Source of the DNA: Herbiconiux sp. L3-i23
GTDB taxonomy: Bacteria; Actinomycetota; Actinomycetes; Actinomycetales; Microbacteriaceae
Assembly (NCBI RefSeq): GCF_023734115.1
Contig: NZ_AP025737.1
Span: 2,108,001 to 2,172,000, forward strand
Length of the DNA stretch: 64,000 nucleotides
Direction of reading: 5' to 3'
Part shown: positions 1,974 through 54,844 of the stretch, one piece after another
How positions within the stretch are numbered: position 1 is the first letter of the stretch
Layout: each line of letters opens with the position of its first letter
Position numbers and translations under genes: made by a program
Notes under the pieces: model-generated
The model's database searches: none
Told to the model about the DNA's origin: nothing
The model's input: the letters and a program-made list of their open reading frames with translations, nothing else

Positions 1974-1976
1974 CCC

Positions 1977-2030
1977 ACTCGCCCACTTCACCCCGTGTCG
2001 CAGCGCCGACACAGGGTGAAGTGGGCGAGT
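1977..2030. repeat. Family A palindrome, copy A1
   Basis: Two 24-nt arms starting ACTCGCCCACTTCACC pair with one mismatch around a 6-nt loop. It lies just after the pepN stop. Related copies are at 2127-2182, 6765-6820 and, inside treY, 44650-44705. Confidence 0.9.
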
Positions 2031-2046
2031 CAGCGTCAGCACCTGC

Positions 2047-2104
2047 CGAGGTGCCCAGATCTGTCGGTGTTCGCGGTCGAACACCGACAGAACCGGGCAC
2101 CTCG
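2047..2104. repeat. Family B palindrome, copy B1
   Basis: 27-nt arms beginning CGAGGTGCCCAGATCTGTCG pair with their reverse complement around a 4-nt loop with few mismatches. It is unrelated in sequence to family A but always follows an A copy here. Confidence 0.9.
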
Positions 2105-2126: not shown

Positions 2127-2182
2127 GACTCGCCCACTTCGCCCCGTGTCGCAGCGCTGACACGGGGTGAAGTGGGCGAGTC
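2127..2182. repeat. Family A palindrome, copy A2
   Basis: Second A copy, 150 bp downstream of A1. The arms GACTCGCCCACTTCGCC and the complementary 3' arm flank an approximately 8-nt loop. Confidence 0.9.
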
Positions 2183-2199
2183 GGCATCCCCTCGCGCCC

Positions 2200-2253
2200 A
2201 GGTGCCCAGATCTGTCGGTGTTCGCGGCCGAACACCCGCAGAACTGGGCACCT
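2200..2253. repeat. Family B palindrome, copy B2
   Basis: Second B copy, 151 bp after B1. Together with A2 it makes a direct tandem duplication of an A-B composite. The 3' arm has more mismatches than B1. Confidence 0.88.
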
Positions 2254-2382
2254 CGCTCACGTCACAACTACTCGATTCGAAGCACTTCTCGCTGGATCGG
2301 TCGTTAAGTTCCGGTTACGCAACGGATTCAGCGACCGATCCCGCGTTAGGGTGACGAAATCGATCGTGAGAAAGAGGGTGGG

Positions 2383-4026
2383 ATGCGCGACGCCGATGTG
2401 GTCTTCCGGGGCGGGGTCGTCTTCGACGGCAGCGGCTCCGCGGCCAGAAGCGGAACAGTCGCCGTGCGCGACGGACGCATCATCGCCGTCGACCGCGACC
2501 TCGATCGAGACCTCATCGGCTCGGCTACCGAGGTCGTCGACCTCGACGGCGGCATGGTGCTCCCCGGTTTCGTCGACGCCCACGTGCACCCCGTCGAGGG
2601 CGGTCTCGAGCGGCGCGCGTGCGACCTCTCGGAGGGCCACACCCGAGACCAGTACCTCGCGACCATCGAGGCCTACGCCCGCGCGCATCCCGACGCGGAG
2701 TGGATCGTCGGCGGAGGCTGGCACTCGGCCGCGTTCCCCGGCGGCACCCCACTCGCCGCCGATCTCGACCGCGTCGTCCCCGACCGACCCGTCTTCCTCT
2801 CGAACCGCGACCACCACGGCGCCTGGGTCAACTCCGCCGCCCTGAAGCGGGCCGGCCTCGACCGCGACACCCCCGACCCCGACGACGGCCGGCTCGAGCG
2901 GGACGCCGACGGCAACCCCTCCGGCACCCTCCACGAGGGCGCCCGCCTGCTCGTGCACGACCTCATCCCCCGCGTCACCGACGAGGAGAACCGGCTCGGC
3001 CTGCTCGAGGGCCAGCGCTACCTGCACTCGTTCGGCGTCACCTCCTGGCAGGACGCCATCGTCGGCGAATACGGCAGCCACACCGACACCGGCGATGTCT
3101 ACCTCGCCGCCGCGCAGAGCGGCGAGCTGACCGCCCGCGTGGTCGCCGCACTCTGGTGGGACCGGCACTCAGGGCTCGAGCAGCTCGACCATCTCCGCGC
3201 CCGTCGGGCTGCGCTGCGGCACGAGAAGTTCGTCGCGACGAGCGTCAAGATCATGCAGGACGGTATCCCCGAGAACCGCACCGCTGCGCTGCTCGACCCC
3301 TACCTCGCACCGGGATGCACATGCGGCACCGAGCGCGGGCTCGCCTTCCTCGAGCGGGACGAGCTGATCGCCGCGGTGCACGCTCTCGACGCGGACGACT
3401 TCCAGGTGCACGTCCACGCGATCGGCGACCGGGCGGTGCGCGACGCGCTCGACGCGTTCGAGTCCGTGCCCGACCGGCTCCGGCCCGGCGCCCCGCTGCA
3501 TCACATCGCCCACCTGCAGATCGTGCATCCCGACGATGTCGCCCGCTTCGCCACGATCGGGGTGGCCGCGAACATGCAGGCGCTCTGGGCGACCTTCGAG
3601 CCGCAGATGGTGGAGCTGAACCTCCCCTCACTGGGACCGGAACGCGCAGCCTGGCAGTACCCCTTCGCGGGGATCGCCCGCTCGGGCGCGCTGCTGTGCG
3701 CCGGCTCCGACTGGCCCGTCACCACCCCAGACCCGTGGGCCGCCCTGCACGTCGCCGTCAACCGGCGCCTGCCCGAGGGCGACCCCGACTTCGATCCCCG
3801 CCCCTTCTACCCGGAGCAGGCGCTCGACCTCGGCACCGCACTGAAGGCCTACACGGCCGGCTCGGCGCGCATCAACTCGTTGAACGGCACCGGCACCATC
3901 GCCGTCGGAGCCGTCGCCGACCTCGTCGTCGTGGACCGCGATCCGTTCGCGGGCCCGGCCGACGAGATCGCCTCGACCACCACCTCGTCGACGTGGGTCG
4001 GCGGGCAGCGGGTCTACGGCGACTGA
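2383..4026 (+). CDS. Amidohydrolase family protein (YtcJ-type)
   Basis: Metal-dependent hydrolase of the amidohydrolase superfamily, 547 aa, close in size to YtcJ-like amidohydrolase_3 proteins. The N-terminal beta domain (residues 1-50) leads into the metal motif FVDAHVHP (about 63-70). Other metal or catalytic positions include the HVHAIGDRAV stretch (about 345) and the CAGSDWPV stretch (about 440) near the C-terminus. The ATG at 2383 has an upstream GAGGGTGGG. It is the first gene of a run with a polar amino-acid ABC importer 52 bp downstream, so the substrate may be an amidated or acylated amino acid brought in by that importer; this is inference. The exact substrate cannot be read from sequence. 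Confidence 0.9.
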   Translation: MRDADVVFRGGVVFDGSGSAARSGTVAVRDGRIIAVDRDLDRDLIGSATEVVDLDGGMVLPGFVDAHVHPVEGGLERRACDLSEGHTRDQYLATIEAYARAHPDAEWIVGGGWHSAAFPGGTPLAADLDRVVPDRPVFLSNRDHHGAWVNSAALKRAGLDRDTPDPDDGRLERDADGNPSGTLHEGARLLVHDLIPRVTDEENRLGLLEGQRYLHSFGVTSWQDAIVGEYGSHTDTGDVYLAAAQSGELTARVVAALWWDRHSGLEQLDHLRARRAALRHEKFVATSVKIMQDGIPENRTAALLDPYLAPGCTCGTERGLAFLERDELIAAVHALDADDFQVHVHAIGDRAVRDALDAFESVPDRLRPGAPLHHIAHLQIVHPDDVARFATIGVAANMQALWATFEPQMVELNLPSLGPERAAWQYPFAGIARSGALLCAGSDWPVTTPDPWAALHVAVNRRLPEGDPDFDPRPFYPEQALDLGTALKAYTAGSARINSLNGTGTIAVGAVADLVVVDRDPFAGPADEIASTTTSSTWVGGQRVYGD

Positions 4027-4078
4027 TCCTCCCTCCACACCTGCAGATCGACCAAGAAAGCGAAGACACAGAAGAACC

Positions 4079-4978
4079 ATGCGCGCACGCAGATTCCTCC
4101 TCCCCGCGGCCCTGATGGTGGGCGCCCTCGCCCTCACCGGATGCGTCAACAACGAAGTGGCGACCCCTGATTCGGACTCGGACGGCTCCGCGCCCGCGAT
4201 CGCGGTCGACGACGCGGCCGCGGCGCTGCTGCCTGACGACATCGTCGAGGCGGGCGTGCTCGAGATCGGCACCGACGCCACCTATGCGCCCAACGAGTTC
4301 AAGGACGCCGACGGCAACCCGGTGGGTTGGGAGATCGAACTGGCCGACGCGATGGCCGCGAAGCTGGGGCTGACCACCAATTACAACATCGCCAAGTTCG
4401 ACAACATCCTGCCCGCCGTGATCGGCGCGAAGTACGACCTCGGCCTGTCGTCGTTCTTCGACACGCTCGAGCGTCAGGAGCAGGTCGACATGGTCGACTA
4501 CTACACCGCCGGCATCCAGTGGGCGACGCCCGCCGGCACCACCGTCGACCCCGACGACGCGTGCGGCCTGACCGTCGCCGTGCAGAACGGCACCACCCAG
4601 GCGCTCGACGACGTGCCCGCGAAGTCGCAGGCCTGCGTCGACGCCGGCAAGGCCGCGATCGAGATCCTCGGCTACGACACCCAGGACGACGCCACCGCCG
4701 CGGTGACGCTCGGCCGCGCCGACGCGATGACCGCCGACTCCCCCGTCATCCAGTACGCGGTCAAGCAGAGCGGCGGCAAGCTCGAGCTGTCGGGCGACGT
4801 CTACTCGGTCTTCCTCTACGGCATGCCCGTGCAGAAGGACCGCGGCACCCTCGCCGAGGCGCTGCAGGCGTCGCTGCAGTCGCTGATGGACGACGGCACC
4901 TACAGCGAGATCCTCAGCAAGTGGGGCGTCGAGACCGGCGCGATCGACTCGATCGACATCAACGGCGCCACGGAGTAA
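4079..4978 (+). CDS. Amino-acid ABC transporter substrate-binding lipoprotein
   Basis: Extracytoplasmic solute-binding protein, 299 aa, of the SBP family 3 (polar amino acids). A lipoprotein signal peptide ends in the lipobox LTGC with Cys22 as the predicted lipidated residue. The mature part begins with a low-complexity acidic/Ala linker, then the family 3 fold with IGTDATYAPNEF and a GWEIELADAMA segment typical of this family. It delivers the ligand to the permease encoded 2 bp downstream. Ligand specificity is unknown; the neighbouring amidohydrolase suggests a modified amino acid. The ATG at 4079 directly precedes the signal peptide. Confidence 0.94.
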   Translation: MRARRFLLPAALMVGALALTGCVNNEVATPDSDSDGSAPAIAVDDAAAALLPDDIVEAGVLEIGTDATYAPNEFKDADGNPVGWEIELADAMAAKLGLTTNYNIAKFDNILPAVIGAKYDLGLSSFFDTLERQEQVDMVDYYTAGIQWATPAGTTVDPDDACGLTVAVQNGTTQALDDVPAKSQACVDAGKAAIEILGYDTQDDATAAVTLGRADAMTADSPVIQYAVKQSGGKLELSGDVYSVFLYGMPVQKDRGTLAEALQASLQSLMDDGTYSEILSKWGVETGAIDSIDINGATE

Positions 4979-4980
4979 CA

Positions 4981-5979
4981 GTGACCTCACACACCGCGGG
5001 GCCGGCCACCGAGCCGGCCCCCGGGCTCCAGCCCATCCGCGCGGTGCCACTGCGGCACCCGTGGCGCAACCTGATCGGCGTCGTGCTGATCATCCTGATC
5101 GCGGCGTTCGTCTGGGACGCCGCCGTCAATCGCACCGCGTACGACTGGCCCTCGGTCGGCAAGTACCTCTTCGACCGCCGCATCTCCGAGGCCGCGCTCG
5201 TCACGGTGCAGCTGACCGTGTACTCGATGATCGGCGCGATCGTGCTCGGCGTGCTGCTCGCCGTGATGCGCCTGTCGCCGAACCCGATCCTCAAGTCGAT
5301 CGCGTGGGCGTACATCTGGATCTTCCGCGGCACTCCGGTCTACGTGCAGCTCGTGTTCTGGGGCCTGCTCTCGACCATCTACCCGACCCTCGACATCGGA
5401 TTGCCGTTCCTGCCGCCGATCGCGCAGCTGCCGACGGACCAGGCGCTCAACACGTTCTGGATCGCCGTCATCGGGCTCGCGCTCAACGAGGCCGCCTACA
5501 TGTCCGAGATCGTGCGCGCCGGCATCCTCTCGGTCGACCGCGGCCAGGAGGAGGCGGCGACGGCGCTCGGCATGAACTGGGGTCTGACGATGCGGCGGAT
5601 CATCATCCCGCAGGCGATGCGCATCATCATCCCGCCGACCGGCAACGAGGTGATCTCGATGCTGAAGACCACGTCGCTGGTGACCGCGGTGCCGTTCACC
5701 CTCGACCTCTACACGCGGTCCCGCGACATCTCGGCCGAGACGTTCAACCCGATTCCGCTGCTCATCGTGGCGTCGCTCTGGTATCTCGCGATCACGTCGG
5801 TGCTGATGGTCGGCCAGTTCTACCTCGAGAAGCGGTTCGCCCGCGGCATCGACCGGGTCGACGTCCGAAAGGGCGCGCGGCTGCCGCAGGGCGACGCGCC
5901 GACCGCCTCCACCGTCGTCAACACCGGCGACATGACCACCGGTGATTCCGCCCCGAGCGAGACGAAGGAAGGCCGATGA
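4981..5979 (+). CDS. Amino-acid ABC transporter permease (HisMQ family)
   Basis: Integral membrane subunit of the polar amino-acid importer, 332 aa. I place the start at GTG 4981: it lies 2 bp after the preceding stop and the GGAG of the preceding gene's last codons (4972-4975) is well spaced as ribosome-binding site. The same frame is open further upstream, but that is only a shadow of the binding-protein gene. An N-terminal extension and membrane segment precede the conserved permease core, which has the coupling loop [20 protein letters not shown] around residues 185-205. The last codons overlap the ATPase gene by 4 bp. Confidence 0.94.
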
Positions 5980-6755
5980 GCGCCGCAGCCTCCCCTGTTC
6001 CCATGGTGCGGGCCGAGCACCTGTTCAAGAAGTACGGCTCGAACGTGGTGCTCACCGACGTGTCGCTCGAGGTCGCCGCGGGCGAGGTGCTCTGCGTCAT
6101 CGGCCCGTCGGGGTCGGGCAAGAGCACGTTCCTGCGCTGCATCAACCACCTCGAGAAGATCGACGGCGGACGGCTCGAGGTGGACGGCGAGCTCGTCGGC
6201 TACCGCGAGAAGGGCGGTGCACTCCACGAGCTGCACGCGAAGGACGCGGCACGGCAGCGCCGGGACATCGGCATGGTGTTCCAGCGCTTCAATCTGTTCC
6301 CGCATCTCACCGTGCTCGAGAACGTGATCGAGGCGCCGATCCGCGTGAAGCGGCAGTCGAAGCAGGCCGCGATGGAGCGCGCCCGCGCACTGCTCGACCG
6401 GGTGGGGCTCGCCGACAAGATCGACAGCTACCCCGGGCACCTCTCGGGCGGGCAGCAGCAGCGCGTCGCGATCGCGCGGGCGCTCGCGATGGACCCGAAG
6501 CTGATGCTCTTCGACGAGCCGACCTCGGCGCTCGACCCCGAGCTGGTGGGCGAGGTGCTCGATGTGATGAAGGGTCTCGCCGCCGACGGGATGACGATGA
6601 TCGTCGTGACCCACGAGATGGGCTTCGCGCGCGAGGTCGCCGATTCGCTCGTCTTCATGGATCAGGGCCGCATCGTCGAGAGCGGCGCCCCGCGGGACGT
6701 GCTCGCGAACGCCGCGCACGAGCGCACCCGCGCCTTCCTGTCGAAGGTGCTGTAG
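5976..6755 (+). CDS. Amino-acid ABC transporter ATP-binding protein
   Basis: ATPase of the polar amino-acid importer (GlnQ/HisP type), 259 aa. It has Walker [10 protein letters not shown] (about residues 44-52), the Q-loop in [12 protein letters not shown], the signature LSGGQQQR (about 160), Walker [14 protein letters not shown] and the switch His in VTHEM. Its ATG overlaps the permease stop (ATGA), so translation is probably coupled. It closes the four-gene amidohydrolase/ABC operon; a family A palindrome follows 9 bp after the stop and may serve as the transcript 3' end. Confidence 0.96.
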
Positions 6756-6764
6756 CTGCCGCTC

Positions 6765-6820
6765 GACTCGCCCACTTCACCCTGTGTTCCGGCCTCGGAA
6801 CGGGGCGAAGTGGGCGAGTC
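6765..6820. repeat. Family A palindrome, copy A3
   Basis: Arms starting GACTCGCCCACTTCACCC pair with the 3' arm ending GAAGTGGGCGAGTC; the loop is short and the inner stem has a few mismatches. It sits alone, without a B partner, between the ABC operon and the leaderless start of the mechanosensitive channel gene. Confidence 0.88.
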
Positions 6821-12643: not shown

Positions 12644-12700
12644 CCAGGGCCCTGGCACCTCAACCGCGGCGTCCCCGAACGCCGGCCCTCCGACACCGGT

Positions 12701-12810
12701 GGTACACGGATCAGGAGATTGTGCACGGATCAGGAGATGGTGCGCCGATCAGGAGTCTTCGGGCGCGACACGCCGTGTTCTGGGTGGGTCGATCCTGATC
12801 CGCGCACACC
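12701..12810. repeat. Family E palindrome, copy E1
   Basis: 110-bp element between tesB and the bL36 gene. Its left half has three direct copies of a motif ending CGGATCAGGAG or CCGATCAGGAG. The right end, CCTGATCCGCGCACACC, is the reverse complement of the left terminus. A second copy is at 54653-54759. There is no ORF of its own. Confidence 0.85.
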
Positions 12811-13538: not shown

Positions 13539-13561
13539 AGTTCATCCTCCTGCTTCGGCGA

Positions 13562-13728
13562 GCGAGAACGCACGTTCCGGGTTTGTGTGCCCGCCGGAAC
13601 GTGCGTGCAAGCCCGCATTATCGGATCCCAGAGGGTGGCGCGCACGTTGCGGCAGCTGGGGCCCGCCGCAACGTGCGCGCTCGCCCGGATCCCTCGCCGC
13701 AACCGTGCGACGTGGGGCCCAGCCCTCC
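13562..13728. repeat. Family C repeat block, copy C1
   Basis: Two hairpins in a row downstream of ettA. The first has 12-bp perfect arms CGCACGTTCCGG / CCGGAACGTGCG (13569-13580 with 13594-13605). The second has 15-bp perfect arms (13638-13652 with 13666-13680). The first hairpin plus its tail GCCCGCATTATCGGATCC is shared with blocks C3 and C4. The block reaches to 2 bp from the ettA stop codon. Confidence 0.86.
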
Positions 13729-20940: not shown

Positions 20941-21022
20941 GAGGAAACGAGCTCCGCGCGCGGAGAACGCAGCAGAGGACGGCGAGCGATCGCCGTCCTC
21001 TTCTCTTTGCGGGATCGCATCC

Positions 21023-21144
21023 CTGGTCATGGAGAAGGCCGTCCACGGCCGTCGCGAAATGACGCGGTTGCAGATTCGCCAAAGCAGCGCACCGCGAAGT
21101 CGAGTCGCATCGCGACGGCCGCGAGCGGCCTCCTCAGCGACCAG
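21023..21144. repeat. Family F unit, copy F0
   Basis: 122 bp; left end CTGGTCATGGAGAAGGCC pairs with the right end GGCCTCCTCAGCGACCAG. The inner arms carry GGCCGTCGCGAAATGAC and TCGCGACGGCC. Confidence 0.88.
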
Positions 21145-21197
21145 TGAAGGCACGCTCCTTCGTATCGCTTCGCTCAACAGGCGGGCAAAGTCGCGTC

Positions 21198-21320
21198 CCG
21201 GTCATTGAGGAGGCCGTCCACGGCCGTCGCGAAATGACAGAGGTCCCAGACCCGCCAGAGCAGCGGACCGCACAGTTGCGTCGCATCGCGACGGCCGCGA
21301 GCGGCCTCCTCAGCGACCAG
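21198..21320. repeat. Family F unit, copy F1
   Basis: 123 bp; left arm CCGGTCATTGAGGAGGCC, right arm GGCCTCCTCAGCGACCAG. It starts 175 bp after F0 and the linker is 53 bp. Confidence 0.88.
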
Positions 21321-21411
21321 TGAAAGCGGCGCCCGTTGAGCGCGGCGATACGCAGGCAACCGCTACGGCTCCTTCGTATCGCTTCGCGGGGCGGGCGGAG
21401 AGAGTCGAATC

Positions 21412-21533
21412 CCGGTCATTGAGGAGGCCGTCCACGGCCGTCGCGAAATGACAGAGGTCGCAGATCCGCCGGAGCAGCGACCGCACAGTTGCGTCGCATC
21501 GCGACGGCCGCGAGCGGCCTCCTCAGCGACCAG
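21412..21533. repeat. Family F unit, copy F2
   Basis: 122 bp, same arms as F1. It begins 214 bp after F1 because the linker is 91 bp here instead of 53. Confidence 0.88.
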
Positions 21534-21586
21534 TGAAGGCACGATCCTTCGTATCGCTTCGCTCAACGGGCGGGCAAAGCCGCGTC

Positions 21587-21709
21587 CCGGTCATTGAGGA
21601 GGCCGTCCACGGCCGTCGCGAAATGACATGAGTCGCCGATCCGCCGCACTGGCGCATCAGAAGTTCCTGTCGCATGGCGACGGCCGCGGGCGGCCTCCTT
21701 CGCGACCAA
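21587..21709. repeat. Family F unit, copy F3
   Basis: 123 bp; the right arm is slightly degraded (CGCGACCAA instead of GCGACCAG). Its end is 33 bp from the marR operator palindrome. Confidence 0.85.
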
Positions 21710-21741
21710 TAGACCTGCCGGTTCGCTCTGCGCGAGCACAC

Positions 21742-36198: not shown

Positions 36199-36218
36199 CC
36201 CTGGACCGCGGCCTGCCA

Positions 36219-36306
36219 CTGACCAAATCAAGGAAAAACCGGGGTCGAGTCACACTTTCATGCCGATCCGAGCCCGCCAACGCCGAGATCTCCTTGATTC
36301 GGTCAG
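36219..36306. repeat. Family D palindrome, type Da, unit 1
   Basis: 88 bp from CTGACCAAATCAAGGA to TCCTTGATTCGGTCAG, one mismatch between the termini. Confidence 0.93.
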
Positions 36307-36323
36307 CGGCAGGCGCTCGGGGC

Positions 36324-36411
36324 CTGACCAAATGCAGGAGATTCTGACGCCGAGCACCCGTTTCGGCCCGGATATGGCCGCTCGAGGTGAGAATCTCCTG
36401 CACTTGGTCAG
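36324..36411. repeat. Family D palindrome, type Db, unit 2
   Basis: 88 bp; terminal arms CTGACCAAATGCAGGAGATT and its complement, one mismatch in 22 bp. Confidence 0.93.
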
Positions 36412-36426
36412 CGACGCAGGCGCGCA

Positions 36427-36514
36427 CTGACCAAATCAAGTAAAACCCGGGGTCTAGTCACACGTTCACGCCGATCCGGGCACGCGAAGAGCGAGATCTC
36501 CTTGATTCGGTCAG
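36427..36514. repeat. Family D palindrome, type Da, unit 3
   Basis: 88 bp, Da type like unit 1, with a few substitutions near the left end (CAAGTAAAACC). Confidence 0.93.
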
Positions 36515-36530
36515 TCCGTCGTCACGGTCT

Positions 36531-36618
36531 CCGACCAAATGCAGGAGATTTTGATCCCGAGGGCCCGTTTCAGCCCCGATATGGCCACCCGAGGCGAAAA
36601 TCTCCTGTACTTGGTCAG
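36531..36618. repeat. Family D palindrome, type Db, unit 4
   Basis: 88 bp, Db type like unit 2. The left end is CCGACC instead of CTGACC. Confidence 0.93.
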
Positions 36619-36633
36619 CGACGCCGGTGGACA

Positions 36634-36721
36634 CTGACCGAATCAAGGAAAAAGCGGGGTCGAGTCGCACATTCATGCCGATCCGGGGCCGTTCCCGCTC
36701 GGATGTCCTTGATTCGGTCAG
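36634..36721. repeat. Family D palindrome, type Da, unit 5
   Basis: 88 bp, Da type, ending GATTCGGTCAG at 36721. The array closes 58 bp before the kinase stop. Confidence 0.93.
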
Positions 36722-40291: not shown

Positions 40292-40349
40292 GAAGATCGT
40301 GCCCCTTTCGTGTCGTTGTGACATGGAGGGCACGGGAGAAATTGAAAGA

Positions 40350-40440
<91 letters not shown>

Positions 40441-40461
40441 CACGGCTCACACTACCCCCGC

Positions 40462-40808
40462 GTAGGGCGTTCCGGGCGAACGCGCACTGGGCCCATCGTC
40501 GCCCGTTCGCGGCGAGGCATCCGGCGGGCCCCGTCCGCCGCAACGCACTCGCACGATCCGATATTGCGGGCACAGACGCACTGGGCCCACCCGCGCCCGT
40601 TCGCGCGGGGGGATCCGGCGGGCGCACGTGCCCGGAACGTGCGTTCTCGCGGCACCCGTCGTTCGCGGCTTGCCCGCTGCGCGTCTGCTGAGCCAATGCA
40701 GCCCTGTGAAGTCGGCCGCGCGCACGTTCCGGCGCCGGGGGCCCGCCGGATCCCTCGCCGCGAACGGGCGACGATGGGCCCAGTGCGCTTTCGCCCGGAA
40801 CGCCCTAC
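40462..40808. repeat. Family C element C2 with 71-bp terminal inverted repeats
   Basis: 347-bp element. The left end 40462-40532 (starting GTAGGGCGTTCCGGGCGAA) is the inverted copy of 40738-40808 with only two mismatches. The 205-bp interior contains CACGTTCCGG-type hairpins like those of C1, C3 and C4. No ORF of its own. The right end abuts the -10 hexamer TAGGGT (40809-40814) of the next gene. It fills the region 40448-40820. Confidence 0.9.
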
Positions 40809-40820
40809 TAGGGTGCGGGG

Positions 40821-41744: not shown

Positions 41745-41971
41745 CCCCGTCTCCCTGACGTTCGCCGCCCGACACTGCTGGCGCCCCAGGGACGAGAAAG
41801 CACGTTCCGGGCTTGCGCGCCCGCCGCAACGTGCGTCTGTGCCCGCAACATCGGATCGCGGGGGTGGGGTGGGAAAAAGCGGGGAGCCGCCTGGGTGGTT
41901 CTCAGCATCGGTCTGAGAGAGTTCATCCGCTTGTAGTTTGATCAGCAGATCGAGCCCCAGACGGAGGATTC
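41745..41971. other. Short intergenic region with family C module C3
   Basis: 227 bp between the oxidoreductase and glgX, holding C3 at 41793-41860; the rest should contain the glgX promoter. No gene seen. Confidence 0.7.
41793..41860. repeat. Family C module, copy C3
   Basis: 68 bp beginning CGAGAAAGCACGTTCCGG; the hairpin tail GCCCGCAACATCGGATCGCG matches the tails of C1 and C4. Confidence 0.85.
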
Positions 41972-44176
<2,205 letters not shown>

Positions 44177-44205
44177 CCGACCGGATCCGAAAGGCCAGAC
44201 CGACC

Positions 44206-46575
44206 ATGAAGATCCCCGTCTCCACCTACCGCATCCAGGTGCGGAAGTCGTTCGACCTCGACGAGGTCGCCGCGACCGTCGACTACGTGAAGGCTCTCGG
44301 CGCCGACTGGGTCTACCTGTCACCGCTGCTCGAAGCCGAGGCGGGGTCCGACCACGGCTACGACGTCGTCGACCACTCGCGCGTCGATCCCGCGCGTGGC
44401 GGCGACGAGGCGCTCGTGCGCGCTGCGAAGGCCGCACACGATGCGGGCCTCGGCGTGCTGATCGACATAGTGCCGAACCACGTCGGCGTCGCCACCCCGG
44501 CGGCGATGGCGTGGTGGTGGGATGTGCTCGAGAAGGGCCGCGACTCCCGCTACGCCGAAGCGTTCGACATCGACTGGGAATTCGGGCAGGGCAAGCTGCG
44601 CATCCCCGTCTTGGGCAGCGGCGACGATCTGCCCGCGCTGACGCTCGTCGAGTCGTCCACTTCACCCCGTCCGGACGGCGCAACACAGGGCGAAGTGGGC
44701 GAGTCGGGCTTCGAGCTGCATTACTACGACCACCGCTTCCCCGTCGCCGCCGGCACCGCCTCCGCGGGCGACGACCCGGTCGAGGTGCACTCCCGACAGA
44801 ACTACGAACTCGTCGACTGGCGCCGCGCCGACTACGACCTCAACTACCGCCGCTTCTTCGCGGTCAACACCCTCGCCGCGATCCGCGTCGAGGTGCCGTG
44901 GGTGTTCGACGAGTCGCACGAGCGCATCGTGTCGTGGATCACCGACGGCATCGCCGACGGCCTCCGCGTCGACCACCCCGACGGCCTGTTCGACCCGGGC
45001 GCCTACATCGACGACCTCGCCAAGGCGACGAAGGGCGCGTACGTCCTCGTCGAGAAGATCCTCGAGGGCGACGAGCGCATGCCCGCTGAGTGGAAGACGC
45101 AGGGCACCACCGGCTACGACGCGCTCGCCGACATCGACCGCGTGCTCGTCGATCCTGAAGGTCAGGCGGCGCTCGATGCACTCGACGGTCGCCTGCGCGA
45201 CGGCGATCCGATCGACTGGCACGATCTCATCCACACGACGAAGCGCGGCATCGCCGACGGCATCCTCAAGTCGGAGGTGCTCCGCATCGACCGCATCATC
45301 GCGGCCCGCTCCGCCGAGCGCGACGATCGGATCGCGGACGCCGTCGCCGAGCTCCTGACCTGCTTCCCGGTCTACCGCTCCTACCTGCCCTTCGGGCTCG
45401 GCCATCTCGAGCACGCGGCGCAGCTCGCGAAGCAGCACCGTCCCGACCTCGCGGGCACCGTCGACGCTCTGCTGCCGATCCTCTCCGACCCCGACGACCC
45501 GGCGGCGCAGCGCTTCCAGCAGACCTCGGGCATGGTCATGGCGAAGGGCGTCGAGGACACCGCGTTCTACCGCTACTCCCGCCTGACGAGCCTCACCGAG
45601 GTCGGCGCCGATCCTTCGGAGTTCGCCATCCCGGTCGACGAGTTCCACACGCGGGCGCAGCGCCGCTTCGAGAACTTCCCCGCCTCGATGACCACCCTGT
45701 CGACGCACGACACGAAGCGCGGCGAGGACGTCCGCTTCCGTATCGACGCTATCGCCGAGATCCCGGACGAGTGGGCTGCGGCGATCGAGGAGCTCCGCAC
45801 GCTCGCCCCGCTCGGCGACGGCCCGCTCGAGAACCTCATCTGGCAGGCGATCGTCGGATCCTGGCCGGCGAGCCGCGAGCGCCTGCACGCCTACGTCGAG
45901 AAGGCTTCGCGTGAGGCGGGCGACTCGACGACGTGGACCGCGCCGGACGAGGACTTCGAGAGGCGGATGCACGCCCTGGTCGACGCCGCGTTCGACGACG
46001 CCCGCGTGCGCACCATCGTCGACGGCCTCGTCGACCGCCTCTCGGCCGCCGGCTGGTCGAACTCGCTGTCGGCCAAGTTGCTGCAGCTCACCGAGCCCGG
46101 CGTGCCCGACGTCTATCAGGGCAGCGAACTGTGGGAGACCTCCCTCGTCGACCCCGATAACCGTCGCCCGGTCGACTTCGCCGAACGCCGCCGGATCCTC
46201 GCCGAGATCGACGGCGGAGCGAAGCCCGCCGTCGACGAGACCGGCGCCGCGAAGCTGCTCGTCACCGCGACCGCGCTGCGCCTGCGCCGCGACCGGCCGG
46301 AGCTGTTCGAGTCGTACACGCCGCTCACCGCGACCGGACCGGCCGCAGGGCACCTCGTCGGCTTCGACCGCGGCGGTGCCATCACCCTCGCCACCCGGCT
46401 TCCGCTCGGCCTCGCTTCGGCGGGCGGCTGGGAGGGCACGAGCGTCGACGTGGGCTCCGCGCCGTGCGTCGACCTGATCACCGGACGCCGATACCAGGGC
46501 GGCGCGCTGCCGCTCGCCGACGTGTTCGCCGACTACCCCGTTGCACTGCTCGTCGAAGACGGAGGCAAGCCATGA
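44206..46575 (+). CDS. treY: Malto-oligosyltrehalose synthase TreY
   Basis: 789-aa GH13 enzyme converting the terminal maltose of malto-oligosaccharides to a trehalose unit. I use ATG 44206 because family members start just before PxSTYRIQ; GTG 44173, overlapping the glgX stop, would add 11 residues. Region I is [11 protein letters not shown], the nucleophile is in [11 protein letters not shown], the acid in VEKILEGD, the third Asp in STHDTKR. A family A palindrome (44650-44705) is read in frame as about 19 extra residues beginning SSTSPRPDG, between LTLVE and ELHYYDHRF. It probably forms a surface loop. Downstream, treZ starts by a 4-bp overlap. Confidence 0.95.
44650..44705. repeat. Family A palindrome inside treY, copy A4
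   Basis: 56 bp: left arm GAGTCGTCCACTTCACCCC, right arm CAGGGCGAAGTGGGCGAGTC, the same termini as A1-A3 with some decay of the left arm. It lies wholly within the treY coding sequence and keeps the frame. Confidence 0.9.
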
Positions 46576-52548: not shown

Positions 52549-52968
52549 GCGTCAATCATGCGCCATCCCCCCGACACCAGGGCGGTAGGGCGTTCCGCGC
52601 GAACGCGCACGTTGCGGCGGGCCCCGTCCGCCGCAACGCACTCGCGAGATCCGATATTGCGGGCACAGACGCACGTTCCGGCAGGCGCATAAGCCCGGAA
52701 CGTGCGTTCTCGCGCGCGGGTATGGCGGGGAACCGGGTCGAACTTCCGCCCGCTTTTCCGGCGTTGGGTCGGTCGTCGCTCCGACTCGGCATGCGACCGC
52801 GACGCGACGACTCTCCGCTATCGGCCGTCAGACATGCGCGATCTGCGATCTGCGATCTGCCACCTGCGAGAACGTACGTTCCGGGCACGATGGGTATGCC
52901 GGAACGTGCGGATATGCCCGCAATATCGGATCTCGCGGGTGCGGGGTCGGCCGGAACGCACTACTCCG
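52549..52968. other. Intergenic region with repeat block C4
   Basis: 420 bp between dinB and the methyltransferase stop. Mostly C4 (52585-52964) with a 150-bp unique core that includes three tandem GATCTGC repeats. No gene seen. Confidence 0.85.
52585..52964. repeat. Family C block C4 with an inverted module pair
   Basis: 380 bp from GTAGGGCGTTCCG to GGAACGCACTAC. It contains two inverted copies of the family C module, one ending CGTGCGTTCTCGCG (near 52712) and the other starting GCGAGAACGTACGTTCC (near 52867). It lies between dinB and the methyltransferase. Confidence 0.85.
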
Positions 52969-54652: not shown

Positions 54653-54759
54653 GGTGCACGGATCAGGAGTTCGTGCGTCGTTCAGGACGATTTCGCCCGA
54701 CACGCCGAGCCTCGGGATCAGAACTCCTGATCCGCGCACGATCTCCTGATCCGTGCACC
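54653..54759. repeat. Family E palindrome, copy E2
   Basis: 107-bp element with left end GGTGCACGGATCAGGAG and right end CTCCTGATCCGTGCACC, an exact inverted repeat. It lies in the 272-bp gap (54573-54844) between divergent genes. Confidence 0.9.
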
Positions 54760-54844
54760 CGCTGGGGCGAGGAGGCGGCGCGAGAGCGCGAACGGAGCGC
54801 GGGGCGCGGAGCGGGCTCGGACCTCGCGGGTCCACAATGGGGGC

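Follow-up and report, generated by a model that had tools for sequence, protein, structure and literature searches.

REPINs are symmetric doublets that carry compensatory changes (PMC3116915). REPs are described as usually exceeding 100 copies (PMC2817692); they adjoin gene 3′ ends, provide stop codons, and occur within genes, and different REPs occupy about the same recB site in two Xanthomonas species (PMC3733652). The palindromic elements of Rickettsia, of ~150 bp, lie within genes in nearly half of cases (PMC10969869), and spaced palindromic motifs are described from other prokaryotes (PMC5217627). The string "actinobact" does not occur in the main text of PMC3733652, and a search of the open-access literature found no paper on the present repeat in Microbacteriaceae.

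The element described here adds a REP-like system in the Actinobacteria, one in which exact length and pairing are kept and sequence differs between species. It resembles REPs and REPINs as described in PMC3116915 in several respects: inverted arms around a spacer; conservation of length and pairing over sequence, with compensatory changes; intergenic location; and genome-specific types. Moreover, such palindromic repeat DNA has become part of the coding sequence of treY and, probably, of a pxpB-like gene. The best reading, which we consider fairly probable, is a REP/REPIN-like mobile palindrome that lacks both the usual tag and the usual enzyme.

A palindrome read in frame within treY

The window, the whole stretch of DNA analyzed, comprises 64,000 nucleotides (G000:C1:2108001-2172000) of the 3.18-Mb genome G000. 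Two relatives figure throughout: Amnibacterium flavum (G002); and G008, the sister of G000, an uncultured Naasia metagenome assembly of 99% completeness. In the window, treY (44173..46575, + strand) encodes maltooligosyl trehalose synthase (NCBIfam TIGR02401, E 1e-250), and its reading frame is intact across a 56-bp palindrome at 44650..44705 (+). Two 21-nt arms (44650-44670 and 44685-44705) enclose a 14-nt variable center (44671-44684). The first-pass annotation had recognized in this palindrome a repeat that is otherwise intergenic, at 1977, 2127, and 6765; it is indeed the same repeat as at 1976-2031, 2127-2182, and 6765-6820, here termed dialect A.

The annotation had also counted about 19 extra residues. 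The element does span 19 codons in frame; the net gain relative to G008, however, is 45 bp, or 15 residues. About 11 bp of the 56-bp element thus coincide with target bases: the G008 target reads GTC GAC GGC GAG AGC GGC, with which the first GA and the last GGCGAG of the element coincide. An alignment of 35 TreY proteins puts the length of the loop that holds the segment at 44 residues for the window and A. flavum, compared with 22-35 for the remaining 33. The segment is a lineage-specific insertion, and the corresponding site in G008 is empty. The segment of equal length in A. flavum is not a shared sequence devoid of palindrome similarity; it is a palindrome of that species' own dialect.

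The predicted structure of TreY (mean pLDDT 85.1, with the 35-row alignment as input) places the insert between strands 156-160 and 180-184, and residues 164-175 fall below a pLDDT of 50. A predicted loop of such low confidence makes it plausible that the insertion is tolerated.

The treY copy most resembles an unlinked element of the same genome, at G000:2652738, to which it is identical at 51 of 56 positions (12 of 14 in the center); a second, at 2652598, matches at 50 of 56. A chance origin, or one through local mutation of a repetitive loop, would be eased by the natural variation in loop length noted above, and is scarcely conceivable all the same: both 21-nt arms and their exact spacing match the intergenic family, and so close a match to one particular copy is foreign to such an origin. 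Searches of the window and the genome likewise rejected a chance palindrome. With as many as 3 mismatches allowed, a 15-nt arm pattern matches the window 11 times against 0.93 expected, and 8 of the 11 matches are the arms of the four dialect-A copies. A gapped arm-gap-arm pattern finds 19 places genome-wide in G000, treY included, and its reversed control none; the inner length is 40 nt in all 19, even though gaps of 12-42 nt were allowed.

Rfam searches gave only mir-2242 as an overlapping match, at no more than 41.5 bits against a gathering score of 70, and these hits were set aside as hairpin look-alikes. Separately, a TPP riboswitch scores above its Rfam gathering score at window 40337-40447 (− strand).

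A superfamily with fixed geometry and covarying arms

The treY copy belongs to a superfamily of palindromes with fixed geometry and covarying arms. A tolerant scan of selected stretches recovered dialect A 30 times in G000, with arms GACTCGCCCACTTCACCCCGT and two imperfect copies among the 30; in A. flavum it recovered a different dialect 25 times, with arms near GAGTTGCCCACTTCGGGCAGT. The center is 14 nt in all of these copies except that at 1277983, where it is 13 nt. The second repeat of the window, at 2048 and 2199, is dialect B, with arms near GAGGTGCCCAGTTCTGCGGGT and the geometry of dialect A. A covariance model, in which 40 of 87 rows are G000 copies that match by construction, gave 136 strand matches in G000, equivalent to 68 places. 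The element is 56 bp long in 66 of the 68 and 55 bp in two, and 67 places divide into 30 of dialect A and 37 of dialect B.

Pairing between the arms holds across sequence change. Across an alignment of 87 copies, 90.9% of arm cells are paired, a value raised by the choice of copies through arm or palindrome matches, and 36-43% are paired once partners are slid. Doubly changed cells number 277; shuffles give 97.5, and controls with slid partners 49-100. Counting pairs changed on both sides gave no separation (13, compared with 12.0 in shuffles; 150 of 500 shuffles reach it). Alignment A1 took 22 of the 30 first-match loci from the strict-pattern search described below. Seven loci not palindromic beyond the pattern (L241, L243, L249, L254, L260, L261, and L264) were left out, as were a duplicate (L251) and the two imperfect G000 copies (L219:4084 and L231:2254).

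Elements often stand in arrays. In the window, an A-B-A-B array of four, entered without strand like the element at 6765, begins with dialect A at 1976..2031 (intergenic, 2 bp past a predicted stop codon), continues with dialect B at 2048..2103 (21-14-21 geometry) and intergenic dialect A at 2127..2182, and closes with intergenic dialect B at 2199..2254. A further dialect-A element occupies 6765..6820, intergenic and 9 bp past a predicted stop codon. The intervening segment, 2255-6764, is collinear in G008 and missing at this place in A. flavum, in which the outer flanks lie ~220 bp apart. Across G000, 22 neighboring pairs are less than 400 bp apart, and 15 of these set A beside B. In BIMEs, it is the REP orientation that alternates, whereas in these arrays it is two near-symmetric dialects. 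The likeness to BIMEs is in the arrays of regularly spaced units (PMC2817692).

The window holds other repeats as well. Three direct repeats of ~90 nt with inverted ends (TGACCAAATCAAGG...) at 36217-36721 represent another repeat family. Inverted repeats with GCACGTTGCGGC/GCACGTTCCGGC-like sequence, of a geometry other than 21-14-21, are present at 13558-13689, 40457-40813, 41793-41871, and 52594-52943. A repeat with CACGGATCAGGAG / CTCCTGATCCG occurs at 12680-12736 and 54724-54780, and also between two elements in locus L339; and tandem repeats of 42-166 nt, spaced at about 175 and 214 nt, fill 21022-21716.

Distribution in the Microbacteriaceae

A strict pattern, GCCCANNTC-N28-GANNTGGGC, matches 31 of 398 Microbacteriaceae genomes, 18 of them at least twice; matches per genome reach 60 in G003, 42 in G000, and 18 each in A. 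flavum and G217. The reversed pattern matches at most once per genome, in 11 genomes. The 13 of the 31 genomes with a single match were accordingly not counted as carriers, even though seven of these matches extend to full palindromes and are included in alignment A1. Among the matches listed, each carrier genome has its own characteristic inner-arm sequence.

Within the genus, covariance-model strand matches number 77 in A. flavum, at least 149 in G003, 47 in G006, 46 in G007, 36 in G001, 24 in G004, and 2 in G005. G008 has none genome-wide, against 68 places in its sister G000 and many in A. flavum and G003; in 300 kb of a G008 contig, no model match is better than E 0.25. Viral carriage was rejected, a superfamily pattern having 0 matches in the viral_contigs set.

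Placement at gene ends

Gene positions around the elements were taken from a codon-usage gene finder, with no use of annotation, and elements that overlapped a gene end by no more than 20 nt were scored as intergenic (the largest overlap seen was 16). By this scoring, the neighbors of the 68 G000 places are convergent genes in 38 cases, tandem genes in 24, and divergent genes in 5; the one remaining place is in treY. The 37 places in other genomes comprise 16 convergent, 13 tandem, and 4 divergent, with 3 not determinable and 1 in a gene (L253 and L256 were dropped as duplicates of L325 and L324, as were weak second matches in L253/L325). Around 67 G000 places, 48 of 100 facing gene ends fall within −3 to 20 nt of the element, and 12 of 100 facing genes share the TGA of the element as their stop codon. 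A pyrimidine immediately precedes the element at 133 of 134 G000 ends and 73 of 74 ends in other genomes, so the ends read YGA...TCR.

Placement mostly at gene 3′ ends makes a hairpin role at transcript ends possible for the intergenic copies. In its strongest form, this role would make the palindromes mainly gene-end hairpins (bidirectional terminators) under selection, with repetition a by-product and the coding copy an accident. The convergent and tandem placement, the closeness of facing gene ends, the shared stop codons, and the folding energy of the RNA (mean of −41.6 kcal/mol over 67 G000 elements) all accord with that explanation. We nonetheless judge it quite improbable. A U tract, such as an intrinsic terminator would have, follows 1 of 134 G000 ends when scored as 4 or more U within 8 nt; common arm sequences and genome-specific dialects require copying, not convergence; and the in-gene copies sit away from gene ends.

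Like REPs and REPINs, the element is a dispersed, mostly extragenic palindrome with inverted arms at fixed spacing. As with the GTAG and CGTC repeats of PMC3733652, copies lie near the 3′ ends of convergent genes, have ends that provide stop codons, and include intragenic members; the ends themselves differ from those repeats, being YGA...TCR and neither GTAG nor CGTC. No CGTC tag was found in the consensus of 87 copies and flanks, and the REP tag GTAG is absent from consensus ends that read GAG...NTC, with G at base −3 in 64% of G000 ends. The 56-bp element, with 68 places in G000, also differs from REPs in number, these usually exceeding 100 copies in the account of PMC2817692. The first-pass annotation had likened the in-frame insertion to the Rickettsia palindromic elements. 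A palindrome inserted in frame into a gene is indeed common to both (PMC10969869), but an element of 56 bp with 1 of 68 places in a gene departs from them in length and in location, and the REP/REPIN/BIME elements are the closest parallel.

Turnover at orthologous sites

The 67 G000 places amount to 45 sites, 14 of which have both flanks in selected A. flavum stretches. Eight of the 14 have no element there, with poorly placed flanks at four of the eight (572425, 698140, 2244012, and 3058380). Six carry an element of another dialect, a fraction inflated by the choice of 26 of 46 stretches for arm matches, including those with all six occupied sites; the 6 sites in stretches picked by synteny alone have no element. 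In G008, all 5 aligned sites, treY included, are without an element; a sixth with flanks there (2244012) was left out. The treY site alone, with its net gain of 45 bp, is clean at base level, the other four being diverged; these sites did not reveal a target-site duplication, which counts against the mobile reading. Together with the 51 of 56 match to an unlinked copy, these element-free sites bear out the earlier suggestion that family A is, or was, mobile.

Position and length agree between G000 and A. flavum at treY and at 756526, directly past a stop codon. At each of four further gene junctions, an element is present in both genomes, of dialect B in G000 and of the species' own dialect in A. 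flavum; the alignment at 1990423/1990496 is poor. Orthologous-site copies are no more alike than others (ranks 22, 6, 10, 27, 27, 2, and 20 of 27). The best reading of the six sites with differing dialects is recurrent insertion or overwriting in place. Sites that are empty or differently occupied in A. flavum and G008 imply that turnover is fast and that some sites are occupied repeatedly. Occupation of 6 of 14 sites by another dialect also speaks against independent random insertion, within the limit that stretch choice raised this fraction. Such same-site copies of different dialects make the spread and mutual overwriting of orphan palindromic repeats testable in sister species.

Origin of the treY copy

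In a treX-treY-treZ tree computed without the insert, G000 and G008 are joined at 99.8/99 with A. flavum outside; treY by itself gives the same grouping with weaker support (84/83). A. flavum has its palindrome at the same codons as the G000 element, and the length of the empty G008 site equals that in G004, G005, and G001. This grouping leaves two histories: either two insertions at one spot, or a loss in G008 that restored the length seen in G004, G005, and G001.

The second history would make the treY element ancestral to G000 and A. flavum, precisely lost in G008, with arms overwritten in each genome by gene conversion or homing: an old site with young sequence. Such a history is favored by the agreement of the two species in element position and length at treY and 756526, and by the four further shared junctions. 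It is somewhat unlikely nevertheless, since orthologous-site copies are no more alike than others, and since G008 groups with G000 while its treY site has the length found in G004, G005, and G001.

Within-genome copying of a mobile palindrome is the preferred origin. The G000 treY copy is identical to the A. flavum treY copy at 37 of 56 positions, whereas the treY flanks of the two genomes are 78-81% identical. Because its nearest match is an unlinked G000 element and not the A. flavum treY copy, it was probably copied within G000. This donor link hangs on 5 differences among 56 positions and on a modest null: under column shuffling, a partner as near as this arises for the treY copy in 8 of 500 trials, and six unlinked pairs, the number observed, in 2 of 500.

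A proposed route can be outlined. A copy of another element of the genome, of which G000:2652738 would be the nearest surviving relative, may have been placed in the treY loop once this lineage and G008 had diverged; the target presumably already resembled the element ends (GA and GGCGAG). We propose that it persists because the reading frame was kept and a flexible, length-variable loop was enlarged. The same treY spot would have been hit separately in A. flavum.

Proposed mobilization

Classical REPs moved by a RAYT were rejected for the genus on both tag and enzyme. Y1 transposase (PF01797) was found in none of 9 genus genomes, whereas 5 of 14 control genomes were positive; the genus has a REP-like system, and no REP-moving enzyme was found in those nine, which counts against the preferred reading. 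The CGTC-type repeats likewise have no dedicated transposase in the account of PMC3733652. In a MITE partner test, arm matches with 0-1 mismatch (100 of 124 matches listed) lie at full palindromes, except one at 1138544.

It seems reasonably likely that movement is by copying, with arms recognized by a putative enzyme; that the element settles near end-like targets; and that it survives best after stop codons. Movement would proceed through the folded hairpin form and an arm-recognizing enzyme other than a Y1/RAYT transposase, and gene 3′ ends may be where insertions survive or are useful.

One gene of G000, L221:4019-4900, lies between dialect-A elements at 1550870 and 1551898 and is DUF559 / REase_MTES_1575-like (PF04480, 25.3 bits, above the cut-off of 20.6; PF18741, 28.9 bits, below the cut-off of 38.2). 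No relative of it was found at E 1e-3 near copies in the other loci examined, and the nuclease was accordingly rejected as a general mobilizer and kept as a lead. More speculatively, and in our judgment unlikely, Microbacteriaceae palindromes might spread without a Y1 transposase by overwriting or re-targeting existing sites, an arm-recognizing nuclease (for example, of DUF559 type) driving a homing-like process. Species would then differ in dialect at sites identical to the nucleotide, and even at a single codon position within a gene.

A probable second coding copy

The first-pass annotation had called for a search for other coding copies. In G000 this yielded treY and nothing further (1 of 68 places); in another genus, it yielded a likely second case. 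The G227 element at L266:1496-1551 lies in frame within a PxpB/PxpC-type fusion gene (L266:1244-3046, start codon predicted), in an extended linker preceding the C-terminal part of the CT_C_D domain. It is read as ELPSSAGFDGANPTEMGNS, in a frame identical to that of both treY copies. The pxpB-like gene likely holds the second superfamily element to be translated in frame, and in-frame copies occur in unrelated genes: treY, in G000 and A. flavum; and, given its predicted start, the pxpB-like gene of G227.
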